Under the pieces are notes generated by a model. That model was not told the origin of the DNA, ran no database searches, and saw only the letters and a program-made list of their open reading frames with translations. A program made the translations under genes and the position numbers. Below, one piece after another: positions 38,199 through 47,190 of a stretch of 52,226 nucleotides of DNA (positions are counted from its first letter, which is position 1; every line of letters begins with the position of its first letter). Origin of the DNA: Flavobacteriales bacterium (GTDB lineage: Bacteria; Bacteroidota; Bacteroidia; Flavobacteriales_D; Crocinitomicaceae); NCBI GenBank assembly GCA_947475275.1, contig CANJNE010000007.1, forward strand, positions 1 to 52,226. The letters run 5' to 3'.

Positions 38199-38930
38199 AT
38201 GAGAGCATTGTATTTCAGGGAAATTAAAAGTTTCCTGAGTTCTATTATCGGTTACATTTTTATATTTATCTTCTTGGTAGCCTCTTGGATTTTCCATTGG
38301 GTCATTACTTATGAAACCAATTTGCTTCAAGGGAATCAGGCGGATTTGATACCATTTTTTAATCTTTCACCCTTAATCCTTTTGGTTTTAATTCCAGCAA
38401 TAACGATGCGATCGATTGCTGAAGAACGTAGGACAGGGACCATAGAATTGCTTTTTACAAGACCCATTTCTGATCTTAAAATTTTACTAGCAAAATATTT
38501 CGCAGGAGTAACATTAATGGTTGTTGCCATTTTACCAACGATTGTCTATTACTTTTCCATGTATTACTTGGGTGACCCAGTTGGGATTATTGATGAAGGT
38601 GCGACATTTACTTCATACATTGGTCTTATATTGGTTGGTTCCTGTTTTGTAGCCATTGGTACTTTTGCATCTTCTCTAACAAGTAGCCAGATTGTAGCTT
38701 TTATAATTTCGATGTTCTTATGCTGGATTTTCTATGATGGTTTTATGCTTATTGGTTCGTACAATTTGCTTGGGGAGTTTGATTTTGTTGTGAAATACGC
38801 TAGTTTGTCCTATCATTTTGATGAAATCAAAAAAGGAATCATTGTTACAAATGATATCATCTATCTGATCAGTATAATCGTATTGTTTTTAACTGCTTCT
38901 TTGGCCGTAATTAAAACCTTAAAGAAATGA
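38199..38930 (+). CDS. gldF: Gliding-motility ABC transporter permease GldF
   Basis: GldF is the membrane part of the GldAFG ABC transporter, needed for gliding in Flavobacterium johnsoniae. The 243-residue protein has six membrane segments and the ABC-2 permease signature (TMRSIAEERRTGTIELLFTRPISDLKILLAKY, residues about 68-100, here broken: AEERRTGTIELL is the core). It overlaps gldG by 4 bases (ATGA). The ATPase gene gldA is not next to it, which is usual because gldA lies elsewhere in flavobacteria. Whether this organism glides cannot be told from sequence. Confidence 0.92.
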   Translation: MRALYFREIKSFLSSIIGYIFIFIFLVASWIFHWVITYETNLLQGNQADLIPFFNLSPLILLVLIPAITMRSIAEERRTGTIELLFTRPISDLKILLAKYFAGVTLMVVAILPTIVYYFSMYYLGDPVGIIDEGATFTSYIGLILVGSCFVAIGTFASSLTSSQIVAFIISMFLCWIFYDGFMLIGSYNLLGEFDFVVKYASLSYHFDEIKKGIIVTNDIIYLISIIVLFLTASLAVIKTLKK

Positions 38931-40723
38931 CAAAGAAAGGATCAAGTAAGTTTACCAATCGCCTTTTTAGTTGGGCATTCTTTTGGATTGTTCTGCTTGC
39001 CATAGTATTCTTGAATATCATTAGTAATTATGTCAATTACCGCATTGACATGACCCAAGATGGCCGTTATACACTTTCGGAAGACACGAAGAAGTTTCTA
39101 GAAAATCCAAAAAATCTTAAGAACAGACTAAATGTAAAAATATATTTGGACGGCAAATTGCCCTCTGAACTGAGAACATTTCGTAATGCCATAGAAGAAA
39201 AGTTGAATGAATTCAGGGAAATAGCTGGGGATCGAATAGAATATGAATTTATAGACCCAAATGTTGGTACAGAGCAGGAACAGTATGAATTGCAGCAGTC
39301 TTTAGTAGCTTCTGGAAAAGGAATTTTTCAATTAGATATGGTTTATGAGTCTGAAGGAGATCAGATAAAAATGGAAGTATGGCCTGGTGCCGTTTTCGAG
39401 TATGGAGGTGCAACAGTAGGTTATCTTCAATTTCTGCCAGGAACGCCGAAAGGTGTGACGTACCAGCTGTCTCAAGTTGTTGAATCAATTGAAAATTCAC
39501 TTATAAATTTGGAATACAATTTAATTAGTTCAATCCGCAGAGCAGTAAAGGATAAAAAACAACGTATCGCATTCTTACAGGGGCATGGTGAATTAGATTC
39601 TGATCATACAGTTTTAGCACGAAGAAGTATAGGATCTAATTATAATGTTACTGAAATTACTATTAATGACTCAATCGCCGCATTGAATGATGTAGATGGG
39701 CTCATCATTGCCTCTCCAAAAACACCTTTCACAGATAAAGAATTGTACGTGATCGATCAATTTGTGATGCGTGGCGGTAAATTGATGTGTTTACTCGACG
39801 CGGTAGAACTCAATGAAGACTCCTTAAATGCAAATGGAAATGCGCATACGGTTAGACTTGAAACCGGAATTGACGACATGCTTTTTGATTACGGTTTGAA
39901 ACTGAACGACAATTTGGTGGTTGATGCAGATAACTGTATGGAAAAAGTATTGTATTATGCTAATATTCCATCAATTCCTAAATGGTTTTTTTATGTACTT
40001 GCAGAACCTACTCTCCACCCCATTTCCAAAAATGTTGAAAGAGTATCTTTAAAATATACGAGTGAAGTCGAAATATTGGATTTGCCCGGAGTTACTATCA
40101 CCCCAATTCTTACTTCTTCAACTAATAGTAATGTAACAGGTTATGCTCCATTGGTTAGTTTGGGAATGCCAATGAATTATGGAGACAATCCAGAGTTAGT
40201 TCCAAATCTTCAAGATGAATCCAATAAGCATGTACTAGCAGCAATTGCTGAAGGAACTTTTTTGTCTAGATTTAGAAATCGTATAATTGATGACCAATAT
40301 CTCACTGCAATAGAAAGCGATCCAGAATTGAAACGCAAATATAAAAAGTTGAATAGTAGCTCGAAACCAGGCAAAATTGTACTGATTGGAAACGGCAGAT
40401 TTATCTCAAATTCACTAAGAGTTAATGCACAAGGACAATTGTTCCCATCCTTGCAATTAGATGAAGATTTATATTTTTATCAAGGAAAAAGTCAATTAGT
40501 TGGGAATAAGGAGTTTTTTGAAAATTTAGTTGATTATACAATGGATGAAGGTACTATATTGAACTTGAGAACGAGAAAAGTTGACATTTATGCTCTGGAT
40601 AAGTACAAAGTAAAAAATGAAGGAAAGTTTTACAAAGCCATTAATATTATTATTCCTGTTCTTTTGGTTGGTCTTTTTGCAGCATTAATGTTGTTTATTA
40701 GAAAAAGAAAATATGCGAAATAA
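38927..40723 (+). CDS. gldG: Gliding-motility ABC transporter component GldG
   Basis: GldG is the extracytoplasmic, membrane-anchored partner of GldF. The 598-residue protein has a membrane segment at about 12-33, a domain beginning NIISNYVNYRIDMTQDGRYTLS (broken here: MTQDGRYTLS is the conserved part), KIYLDGKLPSEL, the segment IAFLQGHGELD (about 213-223), IASPKTPFTDKE, and a C-terminal membrane segment (about 572-592) followed by RKRKYAK. The layout matches the GldG family. It starts within the gldF stop (ATGA). Confidence 0.93.
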   Translation: MTKKGSSKFTNRLFSWAFFWIVLLAIVFLNIISNYVNYRIDMTQDGRYTLSEDTKKFLENPKNLKNRLNVKIYLDGKLPSELRTFRNAIEEKLNEFREIAGDRIEYEFIDPNVGTEQEQYELQQSLVASGKGIFQLDMVYESEGDQIKMEVWPGAVFEYGGATVGYLQFLPGTPKGVTYQLSQVVESIENSLINLEYNLISSIRRAVKDKKQRIAFLQGHGELDSDHTVLARRSIGSNYNVTEITINDSIAALNDVDGLIIASPKTPFTDKELYVIDQFVMRGGKLMCLLDAVELNEDSLNANGNAHTVRLETGIDDMLFDYGLKLNDNLVVDADNCMEKVLYYANIPSIPKWFFYVLAEPTLHPISKNVERVSLKYTSEVEILDLPGVTITPILTSSTNSNVTGYAPLVSLGMPMNYGDNPELVPNLQDESNKHVLAAIAEGTFLSRFRNRIIDDQYLTAIESDPELKRKYKKLNSSSKPGKIVLIGNGRFISNSLRVNAQGQLFPSLQLDEDLYFYQGKSQLVGNKEFFENLVDYTMDEGTILNLRTRKVDIYALDKYKVKNEGKFYKAINIIIPVLLVGLFAALMLFIRKRKYAK

Positions 40724-43838: not shown

Positions 43839-45086
43839 CTACTCCATGACAATTATTTTATTTACGAATTGTAAATTTTCTCCAAGGAACACAAGGCTAT
43901 AAATTCCCGGTGTAATATTTTTTAAGGAACTTATATCCCCTTCTTGATTTATTTCAATTGGATAGCTTCTTCCATGAATATCAATCAAAGTGATTTGATA
44001 ATTTGATACATCTGCAGAGAAATGAAGTGAAGTTTGATTGGATACCGGATTTGGATACACTTGTAACGCATCGATTTCGGATTGCTCTTCGATATTTAAA
44101 TATTCCAACCTAAATCGAGCCAATCCGCCATTGTCTGTACCAACCCAAATATTATCCGTTGAATCTCTTGTAATGCAATGAATATAATTATTAGGAAGAG
44201 GAGAATTTTGCACGTCAAAATTGACCCAATCCGAATTGTTGGTTCGAACGATTACTCCGTTTTGATGGGATCCAATTAAATAGTGCTGATGACGATCAAT
44301 CTCAAATGCAGTTAAGCTGTTTGTGGGTATTGATGAATTGGAAACGTTAAATGTTAACCAAATTTGATTTCCAGTTTCGGTGAAAAGACCTTGAGCAGTT
44401 GATGCAAACCAAGGATTATATAACGCATCGTATTGAACGGAAATGGATGAATTGTCAGGTAAATTTGACGTTGCCAAGGTATAAATTATTGGATTGTCAT
44501 TTACAATATAGAATATTCCACCATTGATAGTAGTCACGCAAGGAATTCCCGTTTGATCAAAAGCTAAAGAGGTAATGTTATTGGACAGTAATCCTGAATT
44601 GGCAATCGTCCAAGTTGTCCATGTATTCCAGTCATACCTGCACAAGCCTTCAACAGTTCCTACCCACAGTTCATGGGATGGGGAAAAACCAATAGTTCTG
44701 ATGAAATTGTCGGCAATATCAGAATTAGAAGTATTGTAGTTTGTCCAAAAAGAGCCATCAAATTTAAAAATGCCACTTAGTGTTGTGCCAATCCAAATGT
44801 GGTTGTTGTGATCTACAGCTAAGGCTCGGATGTAATCATCTGTTAATTCGGAATTCTGCGTGTTGAAGCTATTCCAAGTTCCTTGATTGTAATTGAACAA
44901 TCCGTGATCCGTTCCAATCCAAACCGTATTATTAGAGTCAACTACTAAACAGCGAACAGTATTGTTGGTTAGTGGAGAATTAGTAGTGTCGAAAATTTCC
45001 CAATCCGAGGTGATTTGACTTAAAAAAAAACTTCCGTTACCAAATAGCAACGGAAGCATTAAGATTAATTTTAAGCGAAAACGCAT
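43839..45086 (-). CDS. Two-component-regulator-type propeller protein with T9SS type A tail
   Basis: From the ATG at 45086 the protein is 415 residues with a signal peptide (MRFRLKLILMLPLLFGNGSFF, cleaved after FLSQ). A TTG at 45095 is possible but adds only three residues and overlaps the upstream gene. Residues about 30-330 are seven blades of about 43 residues each with the Reg_prop signature (WIGTDHGLF, WIGTTLSGIF, WVGTVEGLC, CVTTINGGIF, WFASTAQGLF, YLIGSHQNGV, WVGTDNGGLA). Residues about 343-415 are a T9SS type A tail (VYPNPVSNQTSLHF, PGIYSLVF). No kinase or membrane segment is present, so this is a free secreted propeller. It follows the lysyl-oxidase gene by 1 base. Confidence 0.9.
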   Translation of the reverse strand: MRFRLKLILMLPLLFGNGSFFLSQITSDWEIFDTTNSPLTNNTVRCLVVDSNNTVWIGTDHGLFNYNQGTWNSFNTQNSELTDDYIRALAVDHNNHIWIGTTLSGIFKFDGSFWTNYNTSNSDIADNFIRTIGFSPSHELWVGTVEGLCRYDWNTWTTWTIANSGLLSNNITSLAFDQTGIPCVTTINGGIFYIVNDNPIIYTLATSNLPDNSSISVQYDALYNPWFASTAQGLFTETGNQIWLTFNVSNSSIPTNSLTAFEIDRHQHYLIGSHQNGVIVRTNNSDWVNFDVQNSPLPNNYIHCITRDSTDNIWVGTDNGGLARFRLEYLNIEEQSEIDALQVYPNPVSNQTSLHFSADVSNYQITLIDIHGRSYPIEINQEGDISSLKNITPGIYSLVFLGENLQFVNKIIVME

Positions 45087-45087
45087 G

Positions 45088-47190
45088 TTATTCAATAATC
45101 ACTCGAGTTGGATAATTTTTACCTTCAAAATGGATATTGAAAATGTATACACCTTTTGCCAAACCTTTCGTTTCAATAGGTAATTGGTTAAATCCTGCTT
45201 GATGTTCAAACGAATTTTCATAAACTTTCGAACCGACCATATTCAATAATTCTGTTGAAATTGAACCTTCAAAAGGTGTTTCAAATGCTACATTAAATAC
45301 CCCACCATTTGGATTTGGCGCAATGCGAATTGAATTTTTAAAAGGTACATTCTCACCAATTGCAGCGCAAGAACTCACAACAGCCTCAACGGGAACCAAA
45401 TCGCTCGGACAGGTACTATTTTGAGTATGGATTTCCCAGTCGTAGAAGAAGTAGTAATAAGATGCGCCAGCTGAAGCACCAATTATAGATAAAACACCTT
45501 GTAAATCATAAGGATAAGTTGCACTGTTGTTATTTCTGTATAATCCACCGGTACTGATGTTCTTACCAACCAACCTCAAATTGTTTGCAACAGGAACATC
45601 AAAATTCAAATCCACACGACTCGATCCAGCAGGGACATTTGCAGTGGTCGTTTGCAGAACTGCACCCAATTCATCTTGTAAATCAACCGTTATAGAACCC
45701 GCGCTTTGAGAATAAACCAATACAGATTGTAAGTTGAACGGTATTAAACTGTTAAAAATTTCGTATTGTTCGGTATTTACCCAACCGCCACCGCCAATAC
45801 CATTGGTATGGGGTTCTGCATTAACAGAATCTGTATAAACATCTGTATTTTGAACGTAATATGTTGTAGAAGAAGTCAAATTAGGTGTTGTAAATGAAGG
45901 TCCTGCACCAACGAAATTTCCTGCTGCGTCATACCATGTAATATCGCCAGATGCAGTCGCTGTAAGTTCCATTGTTCCAGAAACACAAATAGTATCGCCA
46001 ACAGCACCTGGTGGGTTAGGAGCTACGTTGTTTACTACAAACGGGTCAGAAATATTAGTTCCACAATAATTGGTTACTTCACACGTATACGAACCGGCTT
46101 GTGTAATGGTAATTGATTGTGTACTATCACCTGTTGACCAAAGGTAATTGGTCCCGGCTGTAGCGGTTAAGGTAATCGTTTGACCATCACATAAATTATT
46201 GGAATTATCTGAAGAAATGATTGGTGCTTGAGGGCTACCAGCTGGGTGCTGCAAGGTTAAGGTTACAGGAACAGCCGTATAATTGTTATCGTCATTTTCC
46301 TCTAAAAAGATATTGTTTTTATCGACTTCCATTACGATATAATAATCGCCGTTGCACGTGTTGGGCGGAATATTGATCCACATGCCGTCAAGATGTTTTC
46401 CATAAACGTCGGTCCAACCAGATGAGATTCCCTGCTCGATAACCGAACAGTTATAATTTCCACCACCTAAATTCCAGTTAGGGAAGTTGACATTGTACAA
46501 AACATTACCACCCATGTAAACCGTGTTTTCATCTCTACAATGACCATCATAAGTACTTCCAGGGGTTCCGCATTGACCATAATCCATCAAACAAAAACCA
46601 ATTTTTGCTCCTGTTCCAACTATTGGCCAATTCAAAGGATTGGGATCAGAGGTTTGAATTCTTAAAGTCATTACTGCCCAATCGTCAACGTGATTGTGAC
46701 CGTGAGCTGGGTGATAAGTAACACTTCCCGCATATTGGTCCACGAAGGTCATCGCATTACCATCTTTTTTATAAATACGTTGAGTGATCAATTGCTTTGG
46801 ATTAGTATAACCATTCGGACATGTAAATGCACCAGTTGCATTCACATTGAATACGGTATCGCTGCCGCATAAGAACGTTCTTTTTCCATTTACATCTTGT
46901 CCGCGAACAGTAAATGAACCATGGCCAATGTTTGGGGTGGAACCTGTTACTCTAAGACGACCATCATCCGAACCTTGACCCGTATAATTTGTTCCAGCGC
47001 CAGTTTGTGGATACTCAGTATAACCATTATTAGTAATTCCTTTCCAGGATGCTGTAATGTCAGGTAAAAGCAAACAATTCGCAGTTCCGTCTTCACAAAC
47101 ACAGGAAGTGGCGTTGGTGGTTGTGCACTGAGAAAAGTAAATATTTGGCAATAAGAATATTATAACAAAAGAGAGTAGTAGTTTTTTCAT
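45088..47190 (-). CDS. Secreted lysyl-oxidase-like protein with T9SS type A tail
   Basis: From the ATG at 47190 the protein is 700 residues; a TTG at 47196 is rejected because MKKLLLSFVIIFLLPNIYFSQ is a complete signal peptide. The lysyl oxidase (LOX) domain is at about 45-310. It has YHPAHGHNHVDDW (His160, 163, 165, 167), matching the HxxHxHxH copper motif of animal LOX; GAKIGFCLMDY with Lys196, aligned with Lys320 of human LOX; and QGISSGWTDVYGKHLDGMWINI with Tyr263, aligned with Tyr355. Lys320 and Tyr355 form the lysine tyrosylquinone cofactor. Ig-like parts (about 315-445), a further beta region, and a T9SS type A tail (APNPNGGVFNVAF to RVIIE) follow. It probably oxidises lysine side chains or amines outside the cell. 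It is the first gene of a two-gene unit with the propeller protein. Confidence 0.88.
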   Translation of the reverse strand: MKKLLLSFVIIFLLPNIYFSQCTTTNATSCVCEDGTANCLLLPDITASWKGITNNGYTEYPQTGAGTNYTGQGSDDGRLRVTGSTPNIGHGSFTVRGQDVNGKRTFLCGSDTVFNVNATGAFTCPNGYTNPKQLITQRIYKKDGNAMTFVDQYAGSVTYHPAHGHNHVDDWAVMTLRIQTSDPNPLNWPIVGTGAKIGFCLMDYGQCGTPGSTYDGHCRDENTVYMGGNVLYNVNFPNWNLGGGNYNCSVIEQGISSGWTDVYGKHLDGMWINIPPNTCNGDYYIVMEVDKNNIFLEENDDNNYTAVPVTLTLQHPAGSPQAPIISSDNSNNLCDGQTITLTATAGTNYLWSTGDSTQSITITQAGSYTCEVTNYCGTNISDPFVVNNVAPNPPGAVGDTICVSGTMELTATASGDITWYDAAGNFVGAGPSFTTPNLTSSTTYYVQNTDVYTDSVNAEPHTNGIGGGGWVNTEQYEIFNSLIPFNLQSVLVYSQSAGSITVDLQDELGAVLQTTTANVPAGSSRVDLNFDVPVANNLRLVGKNISTGGLYRNNNSATYPYDLQGVLSIIGASAGASYYYFFYDWEIHTQNSTCPSDLVPVEAVVSSCAAIGENVPFKNSIRIAPNPNGGVFNVAFETPFEGSISTELLNMVGSKVYENSFEHQAGFNQLPIETKGLAKGVYIFNIHFEGKNYPTRVIIE

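Follow-up and report, generated by a model that had tools for sequence, protein, structure and literature searches.

A lysyl oxidase family protein with a type IX sorting tail and a linked beta-propeller partner in a Crocinitomicaceae genome

Results

Two adjoining genes encode a lysyl oxidase family protein and a propeller protein

The window, a stretch of 52,226 nucleotides from a Crocinitomicaceae genome (contig CANJNE010000007.1), carries two adjoining genes on the same strand (Table 1). The upstream gene encodes a protein of the lysyl oxidase (LOX) family in which the LOX domain is followed by two Ig_7 stretches and then by a type IX secretion system (T9SS) sorting domain. The downstream gene encodes a beta-propeller protein with a sorting tail of the same type. 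Its ATG lies one base after the LOX stop codon, and an alternative TTG start 9 bases further upstream would overlap that stop.

An earlier note on this DNA, made from the letters alone, had located the histidine motif and the two putative cofactor residues of the LOX protein, and all of them were found at the residues it gave (HPAHGHNH at 160-167, Lys196 and Tyr263). The Sec signal that it proposed is likewise recognisable by eye in the sequence as a predicted signal peptide.

Table 1. Features of the LOX-propeller locus, in window coordinates.
Feature	Position	Strand	Basis
LOX gene, 700 aa, lysyl oxidase family and T9SS cargo (predicted)	45088..47190	-	ATG start; profile matches, motifs
Sec-type signal peptide, residues 1-21 (MKKLLLSFVIIFLLPNIYFSQ, then C)	47128..47190	-	Recognised by eye in the sequence, predicted
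LOX catalytic domain (predicted), residues 22-320	46231..47127	-	Conserved block in alignment A1; LOXL2 by profile and fold (Z 10.2)
HPAHGHNH, residues 160-167, predicted copper-site His cluster	46690..46713	-	Conservation; register with 5ze3
Lys196 within GAKIGFCL, counterpart of the lysine tyrosylquinone (LTQ) lysine	46603..46605	-	Conservation; register with 5ze3
Tyr263 within DVYGKHLDGMW, counterpart of the LTQ tyrosine	46402..46404	-	Conservation; register with 5ze3
Ig_7 domain (CHU_C-associated), best stretch residues 391-449	45844..46020	-	Pfam match
T9SS type A sorting domain of LOX, residues 625-699	45094..45318	-	PF18962 / TIGR04183
Partner gene, 415-aa Reg_prop beta-propeller with T9SS tail	43839..45086	-	Pfam/NCBIfam matches, model
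T9SS type A sorting domain of the propeller protein	43848..44060	-	Profile matches

Many other large open frames across the order contain a counterpart of the Ig-like tail (45370-46020, residues about 391-607) that the LOX protein carries. Elsewhere in the window, genes at 38199-40723 match the gliding-motility proteins GldF and GldG just under the respective cut-offs, close to the gene for a DNA polymerase beta clamp.

Profile and fold identify the protein as a lysyl oxidase

By sequence and modelled fold, the protein at 45088-47190 is a lysyl oxidase. The Pfam profile PF01186, by which the earlier note had proposed that membership be checked, scored it at 29.3 bits, above its cut-off of 20.4. 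All 23 rows of alignment A1, the set of relatives from which the LOX family profile was built, also matched PF01186, with E values of 0.01 or lower. In the window protein the Pfam alignment covers residues 245-309 only, the half that contains the tyrosine, and the His/Lys half was therefore examined separately.

When the A1 family profile was compared with human LOXL2 (5ze3), it gave a match with E 1.9e-5. The Tyr block accounted for 27.1 bits, and the His/Lys block taken alone was weak at 3.3 bits. Both motif blocks nevertheless fall on 5ze3 in order and in register, with GAKIGFCL lying over GHKASFCL of LOXL2. A phmmer search of the PDB with the single LOX protein retrieved no LOX structure up to E 10, the T9SS tail being its sole match.

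The AlphaFold model of the LOX domain was mediocre (mean pLDDT 66.6), with model residues 181-229 and 235-248 below a pLDDT of 50; the latter segment includes Tyr263 (model residue 242). A Foldseek search with this model placed LOXL2 at the top with a probability of 0.99 and E 6e-3. No match reached E 0.001, and besides LOXL2 none among the 50 matches listed exceeded a probability of 0.11. Superposition with VIA-align gave a Z score of 10.2 against LOXL2 5ze3 (rmsd 3.4, 173 aligned residues), the next best structure scoring 5.2. Comparison of the predicted structure with human LOXL2, also foreseen in the earlier note, thus returned that enzyme as the top match in spite of the mediocre model, and the Pfam score, the profile match to LOXL2 and the fold together bear out the family assignment.

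Active-site residues are retained among relatives

Residues of the predicted active site were counted in 54 LOX rows, some of which are cut by contig ends; two further loci (L027 and L030) were excluded because they are without the His/Lys part. Lys196 was kept in all 54 rows, and each of the 50 rows that reach position 263 has the tyrosine. All 53 rows that span His160, His163 and His165 have these residues. His167 is present in 53 of 54 rows; in the remaining one, L094, the codon contains an undetermined base.

The comparison was extended to five more distant bacterial LOX proteins, from Streptomyces clavuligerus, Gemmatirosa and three Bacteroidota (L031, L032 and L033). These have in common with the window protein the three core histidines (His163, His165 and His167), the lysine, the tyrosine, Asp261 and the cysteines at 200 and 248. 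The first histidine of the motif, His160, is present in the window's clade and absent from all five. The predicted copper-histidine cluster and the predicted pair of LTQ residues that had been read from the letters are hence conserved in close relatives and, in their core, in distant ones.

In 17 of 19 relatives compared, the LOX domain was 79-95% identical to that of the window; the two most divergent (L007 and L008) stood at 57-58%. The Ig tail and the propeller were less conserved than the LOX domain in 19 of 19 relatives, with propeller identities of 28-85%, and the sorting tails also change faster. For the whole LOX gene, comparison with locus L002 gave a dN of 0.05 and a dS of 1.7; the synonymous distance of the LOX domain by itself was saturated (3.9) and was set aside. 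L002 encodes a LOX that is 93% identical and a propeller that is 80% identical to those of the window, and its Sphingomonadales label looks wrong for the contig.

The LOX protein carries a type IX sorting tail in a genome with SprA

The earlier note had assigned the protein to the cargo of the T9SS. Its sorting tail scored above both relevant cut-offs (PF18962, 36.2 bits against 27; TIGR04183, 29.7 against 23), and the genome encodes the translocon protein SprA (TIGR04189, 2,431 bits against a cut-off of 200). At E 1e-3 the genome contains 100 matches to the sorting tail, and a full-length PorZ is found elsewhere in it (521.6 bits, G000:C137). Because SprA, the many tail matches and PorZ all occur in the same genome, the predicted cargo status of the LOX protein is well founded.

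This LOX type is rare across the phylum and occurs mainly in one family

In a draw across the phylum, the LOX profile matched 4 of 395 Bacteroidota genomes, one of which (G130) did so by short, weak matches only; PF01186 itself also matched 4 of 395. At the level of the order, the LOX profile was found at E 1e-10 in 50 of 399 genomes and 7 of 70 genera, and 47 of the 50 positive genomes belong to the window's family. This LOX type is therefore sparse in the phylum and concentrated in a single family. The relative L005 (71% identical) is recorded as Crocinitomicaceae as well. The window genome carries one LOX, a second being absent from it by our searches, and no relatives were found on plasmids at 1e-5.

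The propeller gene is linked to LOX

Linkage between the two genes was assessed at 56 distinct loci, contigs with two ids being counted once. Three more distant LOX loci (L101-L103) were kept apart from this set, and L009 and L010, which match the Ig tail only, are not LOX loci. L006 and L099 belong to the same genome and could be two fragments of a single gene. At six of the 56 loci the LOX gene is cut by a contig end (L026, L098, L099, L107, L108 and L109), and these were not counted for adjacency. In all of the 50 others a propeller gene adjoins LOX on the same strand; this figure includes L093, where a partial propeller was found by tblastn. The propeller lies downstream of LOX at 48 loci and directly upstream at two (L007 and L008), and a comparison of the ORFs indicated that the two frames mostly overlap or abut. 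L087 has an assembly gap within LOX.

Co-occurrence was examined in 60 genomes, the window's included, by searches with both proteins. The 20 genomes that have this LOX type, among them two where the LOX gene is cut at a contig edge (G011 and G046), are the same 20 that have the propeller at E 1e-60 or better. Four further genomes of the 60 gave weak propeller matches only (1e-23 to 1e-27). One genome, G019, has two LOX genes (on C46 and C220), each adjoining a propeller of its own.

The two genes occur together at 35 loci, and at 17 of these the fetched stretch contained no match at 1e-15 to any of the 15 further window genes tested; the LOX-propeller pair therefore persists when its surroundings change. 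It also persists in three other families (G041, G046 and G055). Without a functional tie between the two genes, this persistence and the reversed gene order of L007 and L008 would be difficult to account for. The adjacency and co-occurrence counts are in part non-independent events, since close relatives share ancestry.

No propeller was found in the flanks of the three more distant Bacteroidota LOX genes (L101-L103), and G044, a genome with one of the distant LOX genes of another type, has no close propeller anywhere. The propeller is thus not a requirement of LOX chemistry. What most strongly hints at a function for the LOX of the window is the companion propeller gene, on which the earlier note is silent.

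The partner resembles ligand-binding propellers

The model of the propeller protein was confident (mean pLDDT 83.7). Its sequence shows seven W-x-GT-type repeats, consistent with one seven-bladed propeller. Foldseek ranked the periplasmic sensor domains of BT4663 (4a2m) and BT3049 at the top, followed by PorZ (5m11). BT4663 senses heparin and heparan sulphate. From this likeness of fold, the partner may be a ligand-binding and perhaps a glycan-binding protein.

The best NCBIfam match of the propeller was T9SS_PorZ (NF052228). At 82 bits against a cut-off of 260, and with a separate full PorZ in the genome, we rejected an identification of the partner as PorZ itself.

The mature part of the window propeller is poor in lysine (0.3%, one residue outside the signal and the tail). 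We considered whether such depletion might shield the partner from oxidation by LOX. Across 47 propellers lysine averages 2.17%, and in 30 T9SS cargo ORFs of the genome, chosen by their tail pattern from 20 stretches, it averages 2.2%; 3 of these 30 are as low as the window propeller or lower. The notion of a shield was dropped. We also discarded the idea that LOX acts on the propeller by way of a conserved lysine: none is widely kept, the best column holding lysine in 37 of 48 propellers.

Discussion

Lysyl oxidases in Bacteria, Bacteroidetes included, were published in 2015, in a paper that describes the key residues as widely conserved (Grau-Bove et al., PMC4448552). The family and its active-site residues being already described, the value of the present locus lies in the partner, the architecture and their testability. 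A Bacteroidetes LOX with a T9SS tail or a linked propeller was not found among the papers listed by searches of open-licence literature, judged by title or the start of the abstract, which is no proof of absence; as far as that literature goes, the T9SS architecture and the linked propeller would be the new part. One passage of PMC4448552 states that the first histidine of the motif is absent from bacterial sequences. With that residue present in 53 of 53 covering rows, the window's clade is a small exception to the statement.

We consider it probable that the protein is a true member of the LOX family which is delivered to the cell surface by the T9SS and forms a two-gene functional unit with the adjoining propeller protein. 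On this account LOX would be exported through the Sec pathway by means of its signal, and would fold in the periplasm with formation of disulfides and loading of copper on the histidine cluster. Lys196 and Tyr263 would then be self-processed to lysine tyrosylquinone, as the chemistry of the family suggests. The folded enzyme may pass through SprA, steered by its C-terminal tail, and would be attached or released at the surface. Its substrates there would be primary amines, the likeliest being side chains of lysine or polymers that bear amines, and their oxidation would yield aldehydes together with hydrogen peroxide and ammonia. Judging from its fold and its strict linkage to LOX, the propeller, which has a like tail, most likely binds some ligand at the surface, be it a glycan or not; we propose that in this way LOX is brought to act at its substrate.

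Amine oxidase activity of the LOX protein is likely by analogy, since the archaeal enzyme is active. According to PMC6452851, the LOX of Haloterrigena has activity with copper that 3-aminopropionitrile inhibits, and it oxidises glycine, taurine and several aminoglycosides, a relaxed specificity. A different course would be that the retained LOX fold lacks the quinone and serves at the surface as a structural or metal-binding domain. The two cysteines that flank the Tyr motif in LOXL2 are missing from the window protein, and the low profile score of the His/Lys half would fit such a loss. We regard it as highly improbable, because a purely structural role would not need the lysine and the tyrosine, and both are retained in every covering row, down to 57% identity of the domain, as well as in the five more distant bacterial proteins.

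Several roles at the surface can be envisaged for an active enzyme. In a narrower form of our preferred explanation, LOX oxidises lysines of the cell's own T9SS proteins, and the resulting aldehydes join these proteins to one another or to aminated polysaccharide and harden an adhesive coat. Such LOX chemistry is known in animals, the enzyme would share its export route with the genome's other T9SS-tailed frames, and the partner resembles ligand-binding propellers. The T9SS cargo of the genome is, however, not rich in lysine in the 30 ORFs sampled, the window propeller has a single lysine outside its signal and tail, and the propeller alignment has no widely conserved lysine. We hold this form only tentatively, as one possibility. 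A more elaborate version, in which the two proteins make up a dedicated Bacteroidota surface machine whose propeller docks the T9SS-exported LOX on a glycan or surface polymer and which builds covalently cross-linked extracellular material by the chemistry of collagen and elastin, seems to us unlikely.

Alternatively, the enzyme could oxidise free or polymer-bound amines without any cross-linking, yielding ammonia as a nitrogen source and peroxide that harms neighbouring cells. The relaxed specificity of the archaeal enzyme is in line with this, as is the suggestion in PMC6452851 that it contributes modestly to the supply of nitrogen. A dedicated surface propeller would rather point to a bound than to a diffusing substrate, and among nine neighbouring genes, three of which have no NCBIfam match, none was named as a family of amine uptake or breakdown. 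On balance we judge this reading somewhat doubtful. The propeller could also be a PorZ-like helper of secretion or sorting instead of working with LOX at the substrate, as its best NCBIfam match and the presence of 5m11 among the Foldseek matches would allow. Its score so far under the family cut-off, in a genome that has a full PorZ of its own, makes such a helper role improbable.

The delivered two-gene unit that we favour can be set against known systems. With human LOXL2 and LOX the window protein shares the fold, the histidine cluster and the LTQ lysine and tyrosine in order and register (5ze3), and it has all four histidines of the human HxxHxHxH motif as given in a passage of PMC4448552, the first included. 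It differs from LOXL2 in sequence (21% identity over the 173 aligned residues), in the absent pair of cysteines around the tyrosine, and in having Ig_7 and a T9SS tail, in contrast to the SRCR domains that PMC4448552 reports for LOXL2. The Streptomyces and Gemmatirosa proteins resemble it in their three core histidines, lysine, tyrosine and two cysteines. Compared with bacterial and archaeal LOX proteins, that of the window is longer by the Ig_7 and T9SS tail regions, and it has the first histidine and a linked propeller partner; prokaryotic LOX is described in PMC4448552 as mostly of LOX-only architecture, with three sequences excepted. The partner, for its part, shares the Reg_prop beta-propeller fold with the hybrid two-component sensor BT4663 (4a2m) and with PorZ (5m11), but consists of one propeller with a T9SS tail and lies far under the PorZ family cut-off.

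The role of prokaryotic LOX is posed as an open question in passages of both PMC4448552 and PMC6452851. A partner that is present or absent together with this LOX type provides a concrete handle on that function, and placing the enzyme in a known secretion system makes surface delivery directly testable.

LOX domains in other settings were also encountered among the more distant loci. In L031 (1-3339, genome G044) a more canonical LOX domain (109.6 bits) is combined with PKD domains, a MopE putative metal-binding motif and a dockerin, and in L101 (6017-7411) a LOX domain follows a proprotein convertase P-domain within one protein.
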